A stretch of 37,430 nt of DNA from an uncultured Oscillospiraceae bacterium (lineage in GTDB: Bacteria > Bacillota > Clostridia > Oscillospirales > Oscillospiraceae): NCBI GenBank assembly GCA_944385125.1, contig CALWVZ010000014.1:1-37430 (forward strand), read 5' to 3'. Within the stretch, counting starts at the first letter, position 1, and every line of letters begins with the position of its first letter. The notes beneath the pieces are model-generated. The model was not told the DNA's origin. It ran no database searches and saw nothing but the letters and a program-made list of their open reading frames with translations. The position numbers and the translations under genes were made by a program. Positions 3,001 through 4,409 of this stretch are shown one piece after another.

Positions 3001-3738
3001 CCTCTCAATATTGAGGGCGTTTCCGCCATGAACAGAGACTGCGACGGGACCGCCATAGTGCAGCTCACCGGCGGCAGGCTGGTGGACGGCAACGGAAGCA
3101 CCCCCGCCAATGTCGGCTTTAAGCTGGGCACCGGCACCATGGCCGACAAATTTGCGGGGACCGGCAAGCCCGTTACCACCGCCATAAAGCTCACCGGCGC
3201 CGATGCGACAAAATACACTCTCATCCAGCCCAGCAATCTCACTGTGACCATCACATGCAAACCTGTACACGTGGCAGAGCAGCCTGCCACCTGCGTCAGC
3301 GACGGAGTGAAAGAGCACTACTACTGCGCCTACTGTGACCTGTACTACCTGGACGCTGCAGCCAGCGTCTCTGTGCTTCCGACTCAGCTGACCAGCCCCG
3401 CCACGGGAGTACACACCGGCGACGGCAAGTGGTATGCCGATTCCACCTATCACTGGCACAAGTGCAGCGCCTGCGGAGTTGAACTGGACAAGGGCGCACA
3501 CCGGTTACGTCTGGTGAACTACAAGCAGCCCACGCTCTTCTCCAAGGGATACACCGGCGACAAGGTGTGCATCGTGTGCGGCTATGTGGCCCACAAGGGA
3601 CAATACTTCACATCTACCAGCTCCCCCATCACCGGCGATGACAGCAATCTGCTTTTGTGGGGCGGCCTGCTGGTCCTGGCTACCGCAGGCATAGGCGGTG
3701 TTGCGGTATACACGGTAAAACGCAAAAAGAAAAAATGA
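1..3738 (+). CDS. Large sortase-anchored surface protein, 5'-truncated by window edge
   Basis: The frame is open from the first base, so the start codon and signal peptide lie upstream; 1245 residues are visible. Order: five 37-residue Cys-rich tandem repeats (residues about 8-189, CxCxxxC...CPVC pattern), an Ig-like or linker part (about 195-300), a long Gly/Ser/Asn-rich region (about 305-1060) with recurring GGSF, LNGQ/LNGH and NIYGG-type strands typical of right-handed beta-helix or pectin-lyase-like adhesins, then a segment with CxxC pairs (CAYC, CSAC, CIVC), a sortase-like SPITG motif (1208-1212), a hydrophobic helix and a KRKKKK tail. I infer covalent wall attachment by a clostridial sortase using an SPxTG-type signal. 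The ligand or substrate is unknown; no catalytic residues were recognised. A GTG at 481 opens the same frame but sits inside repeat 5 and is not the true start. The next feature downstream is a duplicated terminator element. Confidence 0.85.
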   Translation, partial: YATDPEPKCTCTVKCQDGSPNQDCPVCSAQGADPSLCAGTQPEAQCGCTVKCESGSPNPDCPVCSAQGADPSLCAGTQPEAKCTCTVKCQDGSPNQDCPVCSAQGADPSLCAGTQPEAQCGCTVKCESGAPNPDCPVCSAQGADLSLCAGTQPEAQCSCTVKCESGSPNPDCPVCSAQGTDLSLCAGTGDEGAPDMVSISSWTWVEDENLTEGKLYLPGIEALDQESFESIKPLLPSSIKIEGSEETLDVSWAFENLMAGSNEKEFTLSAVLPEGYALAEGAQPLSLLLVLGGAQSLELKQLIYISGSGNDENDGSEGAPVASFPAALSKLATGGTIRLAGDMTVTDTLTIPQGTEFTLDLNGQKISGNIAYGLINIASGANVVITDTSGTPGKIYNGGAVTSRAVQIQEGAALTLNGGITLETGSVTSIARSCAPLYITASDANPANVNIINANLVSPSDYAIRLSKSQNAIISIQGGSFSALSKAYNVSCICNGSAAQVSISGGSFTNWATGDSAFVPSDSSILVYDDRVCVQAAPPTSYTARLKGLNCYLMDDSKLYNLAQRWDLNGNTLSVCGALNCSYPPGKYFGNVNGAALSTAIELENGASLSGSMPLAIADVKVSGGSAPVDFFQPYSENYAVSVSSQDGSTLYSSRIKSEKILAYVIRDGVSYEYTDVTQAINNAKKYAGSTLKLNSDFSTDAMIYPSIGDAFNWTLDLNGHSYTYTSTLTAFRISGSGKSFTVTDSSANGGGQLIISKENANSVIETTGSSSNCHITIGQGVTVRGNSILILGTDNTVDVYGSVVTGNANAAIQNNGGSTENSTVNLHSGAVVKSNSIGVFLPGPGTLNVYGGAQVEGGNTGIELRAGTLNIYDGASVTGGSGTPSSSPNDSGSTTSNAAVAIAQHNTGEAIDVNIYGGSFTGGAAFYESNPQGNDQDALDKIAVEIKGGSFNGSVSSETRTGFISGGTYSQDPADIYIVSGLDGAAFNGKFIIVAKGTTPLNIEGVSAMNRDCDGTAIVQLTGGRLVDGNGSTPANVGFKLGTGTMADKFAGTGKPVTTAIKLTGADATKYTLIQPSNLTVTITCKPVHVAEQPATCVSDGVKEHYYCAYCDLYYLDAAASVSVLPTQLTSPATGVHTGDGKWYADSTYHWHKCSACGVELDKGAHRLRLVNYKQPTLFSKGYTGDKVCIVCGYVAHKGQYFTSTSSPITGDDSNLLLWGGLLVLATAGIGGVAVYTVKRKKKK
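22..567 (+). repeat. Five tandem 111-bp coding repeats (Cys-rich modules)
   Basis: Units start at 22, 133, 244, 355 and 466, each exactly 111 bp (37 codons); the fifth diverges after about 567. The residues before 22 (ATDPEP) resemble the end of a unit, so more copies probably lie upstream. Copies 1 and 3 begin KCTC and carry QDGSPNQD; copies 2, 4 and 5 begin QC(G/S)C and carry ESG(S/A)PNPD. This gives an A-B-A-B-B' pattern, a 222-bp higher-order unit. Each copy has six Cys. Near-identity at DNA level suggests recent expansion by recombination or slippage. Confidence 0.95.
3622..3738 (+). other. C-terminal sortase sorting signal (SPITG, membrane helix, basic tail)
   Basis: Codons 3622-3636 encode SPITG, followed by GDDSN, a roughly 20-residue hydrophobic stretch and KRKKKK before the TGA. 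This is the standard tripartite layout of a cell-wall sorting signal. The motif is the S/PPxTG variant known from clostridial sortases rather than LPxTG. No sortase gene is in the window. Confidence 0.8.
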
Positions 3739-3761
3739 GTTTCAGCCGGTGATACGAGCAT

Positions 3762-3791
3762 AAAAAAGAGGACGGATATACCGTCCTCTTT
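3762..3791 (-). terminator. Terminator hairpin, left copy
   Basis: GAGGACGG and CCGTCCTC (3768-3775, 3781-3788) pair around ATATA. On the minus strand the stem is followed by six T (3762-3767), so this copy best serves the spoIIE transcript arriving from the right; on the plus strand only TTT follows. The same 25 bases recur at 3994-4018. Confidence 0.7.
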
Positions 3792-4018
3792 GAGACTGTC
3801 GAAAAAGCCTCGCAGAGTTTTTTCGCCGCAGCGAAAAAATAATTTAAATCGTTTTCTGCGGCGGCGTGTACGTCGCAGAAAACACTTCTCACGGAGCGAA
3901 GTGTCGAATTGTACGCCTCTGGCGTACAACTGAGGCATGGAGCGAAGTGCAAGCCCTTTTGTCGAAGAAGGCTTGGCCTTCTTCGACAAGCTGAGAGGAC
4001 GGATATACCGTCCTCTTT
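3767..4018. repeat. MITE-like multi-hairpin element flanked by 25-bp direct repeats
   Basis: The 25 bases at 3767-3791 recur exactly at 3994-4018; both are terminator palindromes. Between them are consecutive hairpins: 3818-3826/3831-3839 (9 bp, CGCA loop), 3852-3863/3871-3882 (12 bp, one G-T), 3882-3888/3898-3904 (7 bp), 3909-3917/3921-3929 (9 bp) and 3959-3972/3976-3989 (14 bp, perfect). The inner ends carry related inverted sequences (GTCGAAAAAG near 3799; CTTCTTCGAC near 3978-3987). Removing one repeat plus the interior restores A6-stem-T6, a clean bidirectional terminator between two convergent genes. I infer insertion into that terminator with target duplication. No credible protein: the open frames here are low-complexity readings of the hairpins. 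The rest of 3739-4034 is plain spacer. Confidence 0.7.
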
Positions 4019-4021
4019 TTT
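3994..4021 (+). terminator. Terminator hairpin, right copy
   Basis: The same 8-bp stem as at 3768-3788 (here 3995-4015), followed on the plus strand by six T (4016-4021). It is placed to stop transcripts of the surface-protein gene that read through the hairpin element. Confidence 0.7.
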
Positions 4022-4034
4022 CTTCCATGAGTAT

Positions 4035-4409
4035 CTATATCACCCCTCCCAGCCAAAGTGCAAATATGGCCGCTGCCGCTCCCAGGGCAAAAACTGACAT
4101 GGCGGTGGGGAATACCGGGCGCACCGGGTCGGCAGGTATGGCTTGGTCCACATAGTCCCGGGCTGCCTCCCGGGCCTGGCGCAGCAGCTCCTGGCTGCTT
4201 ATGCCGGGAGTCTGGAAATAGTCGTCCCGGAGGATGAACATGGCCTGGGTGAACATGGGGTCCGGGGGATGCACCACTATCACCCGGCGCATGTTCCCCC
4301 GCACTACCGGCAGCTTCTCCCTGCGGCGTCTGCGCCGGGCAGCGCCGGGGATACCGAAGCTCAGGGCAGAGACCAGGTCCATGAACCTGTCCCTCATCCT
4401 GTATCTCAT
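4035..4409 (-). CDS. Small tail-anchored membrane protein coupled to spoIIE
   Basis: 124 residues of unknown function. The start is ATG at 4409, which overlaps the spoIIE stop as ATGA, with an AGGAG ribosome site 6 bases upstream; a longer reading of the frame would run deep into spoIIE and is not credible. Visible features: a basic N-terminal half with an arginine run (residues about 25-31), a central part (about residues 32-60) with a hydrophobic VIVV strand and an HPPDP motif, a predicted amphipathic helix rich in Gln/Glu/Arg, and one C-terminal transmembrane helix (about 103-123), so the bulk should face the cytoplasm. The four-base overlap suggests expression with SpoIIE during early sporulation. 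In Bacillus the genes after spoIIE are yabS and yabT; this product resembles neither. Confidence 0.7.
   Translation of the reverse strand: MRYRMRDRFMDLVSALSFGIPGAARRRRRREKLPVVRGNMRRVIVVHPPDPMFTQAMFILRDDYFQTPGISSQELLRQAREAARDYVDQAIPADPVRPVFPTAMSVFALGAAAAIFALWLGGVI

Follow-up and report, generated by a model that had tools for sequence, protein, structure and literature searches.

What is known of mobile elements that choose their target by its structure? The closest described system is IS1272, a member of the IS1182 family, whose targets are hairpins, several of them terminators; in the available part of the first account, insertion goes along with a partial deletion of the hairpin and no duplication (PMC4923244). 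In the part of a second account open to us, the hairpin is replaced and no target duplication is reported (PMC5678879). The model of 'replacement by structure-dependent transposition' given there nevertheless draws, as pathway b, a duplication of the whole hairpin as a hypothetical pathway (PMC5678879, Fig 13). Among the matches listed in our literature search for insertion sequences or MITEs targeting terminators or palindromes, these two papers, seen in part, were the only direct precedents (PMC4923244, PMC5678879), and the search found no publication on MITEs or repeats of Oscillospiraceae.

Here, we describe a 204-bp element in a window of 37,430 nucleotides, by which we mean the whole stretch of DNA that was analysed. 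We conclude that it is very probably a MITE moved in trans by a hairpin-targeting DDE transposase of the IS1182 family, and we find that the unit copied on its insertion is the hairpin itself.

The window locus and its parts

The preliminary description of this locus reported five stems between two exact copies of a terminator, and all five are found at the positions given in Table 1, the longest with the perfect 14 bp claimed for it. The exact 25-bp direct repeat of the window sequence (3767-3791 / 3994-4018) stands as well. The limits of the element need a small correction: alignment of the copies sets the non-coding element at 3791-3994, and the same comparison sets the duplicated target at 23 nt (3768-3790 / 3995-4017). 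The imperfect inversion noticed at the ends extends to terminal inverted repeats of 17 nt. The stretch as a whole is predicted to be strongly folded (z = -10.5 against 200 dinucleotide shuffles).

The element sits between convergent frames. Upstream, a plus-strand gene of 1085 aa with a YDG domain ends at 3738, about 29 nt before the left hairpin copy; downstream, a minus-strand open frame ends at 4035, its stop lying 17 nt beyond the right hairpin copy. On the plus strand three T follow the left copy and six the right one; read on the minus strand, the long T-tract is found at the left copy. Joining the outer flanks in silico yields A6-stem-T6, which reproduces the bidirectional terminator that had been proposed to stand there before insertion.

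Table 1. Features of the element and its flanks, in window coordinates
Feature	Position	Strand	Remarks
Left target-duplication copy	3768..3790	.	Terminator hairpin, stem 3767-3775 / 3781-3789, loop ATATA
Mobile element	3791..3994	+	204 bp; seven further sites in the genome carry it identical or nearly so
Left terminal inverted repeat TGAGACTGTCGAAAAAG	3791..3807	+	11/16 positions match either end of L031
Conserved structured core	3805..3952	+	Model R1, 154.9 bits
Near-invariant GCCTCGCAGAG, core start	3807..3817	+	Core alignments
Core stem 1	3818..3839	+	In the first alignment, two-sided changes at three pairs; excluded from the second
Core stem 2	3851..3883	+	13 pairs; covariation strongest here
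Stem within element	about 3884-3903		Folding of the window
Long-range core helix, 5' arm	3890..3904	+	Outer parts hold in the second alignment, innermost four pairs fail
Variable inner hairpin	3909..3929	+	Folding of the window
Long-range core helix, 3' arm	3935..3949	+	Pairs with 3890..3904
Right-end hairpin	3959..3989	+	Perfect 14 bp; part of the right terminal repeat and its inverted copy
Right terminal inverted repeat TCAGCTTGTCGAAGAAG, read inwards	3978..3994 (3994-3978)	-	13/16 positions match either end of L031
Right target-duplication copy	3995..4017	.	Same hairpin as the left copy, then long T-tract

Copies, duplicated hairpins and empty sites

A search for the element in the genome that holds the window (G000; 86 contigs totalling 2.0 Mb, completeness some 76%) gave 40 matches, partly inverted hits of the same copies. 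The full-length element (about 200 bp) is present at 18 of the 19 best loci, the window included, and the remaining matches are partial. Seven copies besides that of the window are 99-100% identical to it, and both orientations occur. A hairpin adjoins both ends in 16 of the 18 full-length copies, its sequence varying by site; the further copies expected in the preliminary description do exist, and in most cases each has duplicated a hairpin of its own.

The statistics of duplication were drawn from 55 loci, comprising 25 from G000, where five more of the 30 retrieved are short or inverted hits and were set aside, and all 30 retrieved from G003 and G016. Removal of eleven that are partial or cut by a contig end left 44 full-length copies, some of their sites being common to several genomes. 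In 25 of the 44 copies the flanks hold a direct repeat that is 18 nt or longer, has no more than one mismatch and lies no further than 8 nt from the element ends, as compared with none of 326 controls in which the test position was shifted by 400-900 nt in the same loci of these three genomes. This bears out the proposed insertion with copying of the target. Hairpins abut both ends in 35 of the 44; in two of the 35 the hairpins on the two sides are different or strongly diverged, as seen in L066 and L072. Among 23 copies whose repeats are clean, the duplicated stretch measures 20-31 nt, equals the hairpin in length in 10, and correlates with the length of the G+C-bounded hairpin (r = 0.68, p = 4e-4, a value that is optimistic, as some sites are shared between genomes). 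Since its length tracks the hairpin, the unit copied is the hairpin and not a fixed number of bases, unlike what a fixed-length ruler produces.

A clean direct repeat is absent from 19 of the 44 full-length copies. Because identity to the window copy does not exceed 95.1% in 18 of them, age may account for the loss; the exception is L043, which is 98.5% identical and yet lacks a clean repeat. A further peculiarity concerns the loops. In L012, L013, L014, L034 and L074 the loops of the flanking hairpins match better when one is inverted, the stems being alike; L074 and L013 are the same site in G003 and G000, with the loop inverted between the hairpin copies, and other cases are L010 versus L064 and, in other genera, L257 and L191. 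Because all nine G000 copies of at least 95% identity have direct loops, the inversions are probably later events.

Do sites without the element carry one hairpin? We joined the flanks of ten G000 sites and looked for the products in 61 genomes of the genus, scoring four candidates per genome. Contiguous matches spanning the junction were obtained for six of the ten, among them the window site; eight junction alignments read from these six sites have one hairpin each. Thus, the single terminator anticipated at element-free orthologous sites is there. At the window site, the G003 sequence (86% identity over 354 nt) contains just one terminator, of the form A7-stem-T6, and at the L002 site G016 has one copy of the same hairpin sequence (97% identity). 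No spanning match for L003, L006, L007 or L008 was among the matches listed for the 61 genomes. One terminator has been occupied twice: L015 (G000:C9) and L241 (G016:C62) lie at the same terminator, which holds the MITE in G000, is taken by an IS1182 element in G016, where the hairpin has another loop, and is empty in G003. Short, non-coding and multicopy, with inverted ends, target duplications and empty sites, the element is what the preliminary description took it for, a MITE.

Probable IS1182-family partners and the structured core

Transposases were assigned to the IS1182 family with model NF033551 at a cut-off of 270 bits, the scores being 389.9 for G016:C62, 385 for G105:C44, 380.4 for G000:C12, 361.7 for G006 and 309.8 for G016:C29. 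G000 has one such element (L031, G000:C12), with one stop in the transposase frame. It ends in CAGCTTGTCAAAAAAC and CAGCCTGTCAAAGAAC, which are like the right end of the MITE at 13 of 16 positions and like the left end at 11 of 16; the former agreement has a chance probability of about 4e-6 per comparison, equal base frequencies being assumed. L031, itself flanked by a duplicated hairpin of 41 bp, answers the earlier call for a transposase with similar ends. An IS1182 element at G016:C29 has a 32-bp duplicated hairpin and a transposase frame in two pieces, and one at G105:C44, in another genus, has an open frame of 512 aa without a stop, is bounded by CAGACTGTCGAAAAAC and CAGACTGTCGAAGAAC, and stands between two copies of a hairpin, alike over 16+17 bp and unlike in the two-base loop. 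Of these three insertion sequences, each beside a duplicated hairpin, two (G000 and G016:C29) have a broken transposase frame, which counts somewhat against the proposed mover. The partner loci with similar ends are L031, L094 and L267. IS1182 elements with like ends also lie between two different hairpins, at G016:C62 (L084) and G105:C32 (L273), which we cannot explain otherwise than by later recombination. A hairpin or palindrome as target is thus found for the IS1182 elements here as well.

In nine of 15 genomes chosen for carrying the core, one of them nearly closed, there is no IS1182 match at E <= 0.001 (G071, G088, G164, G123, G107, G130, G158, G064 and G073); in these, either the partner has been lost or the mover is another transposase. 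The first five of them have core copies with flanking repeats although they lack an IS1182 match. The interior of the MITE does not appear as part of a longer partner, with no element match at the insertion sequences G000:C12, G016:C29 and G016:C62. Many MITEs have just their ends in common with their partner, so that this mismatch does not exclude membership.

What, then, is the interior? The first ~150 nt of the element are also present in elements whose ends are different, and we delimit a core of 148 nt. In a first alignment, the start motif was present in 34 of 36 loci, of which 29 from seven genomes were used, one genome (G030) being from outside the bacterial family; L009 and L047 (near duplicates) and L040, L042 and L050 (in which the later part looked different) were left out by hand, and stem 2 is not paired in L050. 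RNAalifold returned 31 pairs, 15 of them with two-sided changes. Pairing holds in 97.9% of cells, as against 41-64% with slid partners, for a structure derived from these same sequences; in 500 shuffles, the covariation score was reached by none, the number of two-sided pairs by 3 and the number of pair types by 14. A second alignment consisted of the window's core and 31 more, all of other genera: 15 genomes supplied 23 and Vescimonas fastidiosa 8 of the 20 fetched from it, after 4 of an initial 38 had been excluded for lack of the motif and 3 for being off position. These cores were found with model R1 and are not fully independent of it. Tested on 22 of the 31 pairs, stem 1 and the first small helix being left out, it is paired in 83.3% of cells versus 42-53% with slid partners, and 15 pairs have two-sided changes. 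The innermost four pairs of the long-range helix fail (11.9% of cells paired, against 97-99% in the other helices), perhaps from a register shift introduced through the window's own sequence. In stem 2, G-T pairs outnumber A-C pairs by 56 to 6 in 59 distinct sequences, 46 of the 56 being at one position, which leaves 10 versus 6 elsewhere.

Rfam 15 gave no match at gathering score for the window, L046, L049, L035, L037 or L040, and a search of 3700-4060 at E up to 10 gave five matches far below gathering, the best at E 0.083; a literature search for the core and left-end sequence strings found no publication containing them. R1 has matches in 83 of the 150 genomes sampled from the bacterial family, G000 included, and in 65 of its 106 sampled genera, with up to 145 core matches in one genome. 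Present in over half of the sampled genomes of the family and unmatched in Rfam, the core may lie unnoticed in the transcript tails of existing RNA data. In a class-wide sample, searched with stricter filters and with the best 15 candidates scored per genome among the matches listed, it occurs in two of 196 genomes, G000 and G105, both of the same family. An exact 34-mer search returned 37 stretches in MAGs of uncultured Oscillospiraceae, Eubacteriales and Clostridia and of Candidatus Limivicinus faecipullorum.

Fifteen further genomes of the family supplied 30 loci: direct repeats, 25-33 nt long and mostly beside ends like CAGNNTGTCGAAAAA, are present at 10 of them, and 7 lack a recognisable motif. 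The genus and G030 together gave 29 loci, nine of which have direct repeats (19-36 nt); the ten G030 loci read have no flanking repeats. G030, which belongs to another family of the order, gave 109 first-look element candidates, the best 40 of which were scored, and has many copies, set inside long hairpin arrays with recurring 3' hairpins (L036, L046, L056, L114, L117, L120, L122, L126, L128 and L132). A diverged match also occurs in four human-faecal phage records (MT835961.1, MT836333.1, MT839839.1 and MT835783.1), representing either phage carriage or host DNA within the records.

The isolate Vescimonas fastidiosa MM35 has 36 matches on one 861-kb replicon (NZ_AP023416.1), including a copy downstream of rpoC between two exact 28-bp copies of the rpoC terminator. 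That an isolate has the same arrangement speaks against an assembly artefact. Seven of the best 20 of the 36 have a flanking repeat that is 20 nt or longer and contains no more than 3 mismatches (five direct, two inverted). None of 23 placed copies overlaps a listed gene, the annotation being incomplete in that collection, and 21 of them lie behind at least one gene end: 9 are between convergent, 12 between tandem and 2 between divergent genes. The core is antisense in 9 of the 12 tandem-gene copies, a number too small for a conclusion. A tally of copy orientation in MAGs, based on naive ORF calling, was too noisy for use.

Insertion, alternative explanations and known systems

The insertion can be pictured as follows. 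The transposase would choose its target by shape, as a hairpin or cruciform such as that of an intrinsic terminator, and would join the 3' ends of the element to it. If the joining sites on the two strands were the 5' feet of the extruded palindrome, the stagger would be the palindrome, and repair would copy it, as drawn in pathway b (PMC5678879). A target duplication equal to a hairpin of any length is a footprint of insertion by DNA shape. Each of two convergent transcripts would then meet a hairpin copy whose T-tract is shortened or gone, read through the element and stop at the far, intact terminator copy, leaving a structured 3' tail. From the T-tract layout of the two copies, each convergent transcript would keep one intact terminator beyond the element, and insertion should therefore cost the host little; terminator duplication would explain how the element can occupy dozens of gene ends without costing much. 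The interior core, for which no match was seen in the partner insertion sequences, could at a guess be a passenger folded as RNA.

How do other explanations fare? A local duplication of the terminator next to unrelated hairpins, with no mobile element at all, would draw on the tendency of hairpin-rich sequence to template switching and on the loop inversions seen here. We reject it as next to impossible, as the same 204 bp stand at many unrelated places, empty sites exist and no shifted control has such repeats. Equally untenable is an IS1272-type replacement, in which both hairpins would belong to the element and the target hairpin would be replaced: it has its precedent in IS1272 of the same family, which targets hairpins and, in the available parts of both papers, leaves no duplication (PMC4923244, PMC5678879), but here the targets are duplicated, the flanking hairpins vary between copies and the empty site has the same hairpin sequence, as at the L002 site in G016. 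The element could also be a transposon moved by an unrelated mechanism, whether another transposase or single-strand or RNA-mediated insertion, with ends resembling those of IS1182 by convergence. The core-rich genomes without an IS1182 match (9 of 15) and the conserved folded interior, unmatched in the IS1182 elements seen, point in this direction; we consider it improbable nonetheless, because, with the position set by the hairpin, the ends of the element match those of IS1182 elements, at 13 of 16 positions for the right end, and because three IS1182 elements have made the same kind of duplication.

Compatible with movement by an IS1182-family transposase is a further proposal, that the core is kept for use by the host as a 3'-end RNA element and not for transposition. 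Two-sided covariation in two alignments, the position of the V. fastidiosa copies (23/23 outside listed genes, 21/23 behind a gene end) and the excess of G-T over A-C pairs in stem 2 argue for it. On the other side stand the concentration of the G-T pairs at one position, the antisense core in most tandem-gene placements and the consideration that a mobile element requiring structure would covary as well, so that we hold host use to be possible but doubtful. Slightly more tentative still is the wider suggestion that the core is an undescribed structured RNA family, spread across a large share of one Clostridia family, which rides on shape-reading, terminator-duplicating elements of IS1182 type, a natural case of the 5'-foot pathway, and is kept in many genera as a working 3'-end RNA.

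Folded repeats conserved across genera are familiar from ERIC and other conserved intergenic repeats, and group IIC introns insert at terminators, needing a reverse transcriptase; we know of no IS1182 ends or hairpin-length duplications in either. The duplications that ISfinder lists for IS1182 reportedly range over 0-60 bp, and the entry of some member may thus already cover the duplication of a hairpin. The BOX, RUP and SPRITE repeats of pneumococcus are likewise short, structured, multicopy and MITE-like, with SPRITE enriched near gene ends; SPRITE differs in that it merely resembles a terminator and that its target duplication could not be established, and the available text mentions no terminator duplication for any of the three (PMC3049150). 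ISPse1 of Paracoccus is by name a member of the IS1182 family, and differs in that its table row, in the part of the source at hand, reads 4 in the column that we take as the duplication length (PMC3281130).

The nearest relatives remain IS1272 and TnSha1 of staphylococci, which, as far as the available parts of the two papers go, share an IS1182-family transposase, hairpin targets without common sequence, several terminators among these, and both orientations at one target (PMC4923244, PMC5678879). Hence, the targeting of terminators supposed in the preliminary description is present here, and is not without precedent, unusual though it was held to be there. The differences are that the hairpin is partly or wholly deleted there whereas the whole hairpin is duplicated here, and that the multicopy mover here is a 204-bp non-coding element. 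Pathway b was drawn as an alternative to reported IS1272 cases that, in the part available, are replacements (PMC5678879), whereas the duplication itself is seen here; with two dozen clean natural cases and six sites with empty orthologues, the drawn IS1182-family pathway becomes testable. The element works like the MITEs of the IS1182 family and by its ends belongs with them, its core being a separate part; new here are a hairpin that is duplicated instead of lost, and a conserved, structured interior.
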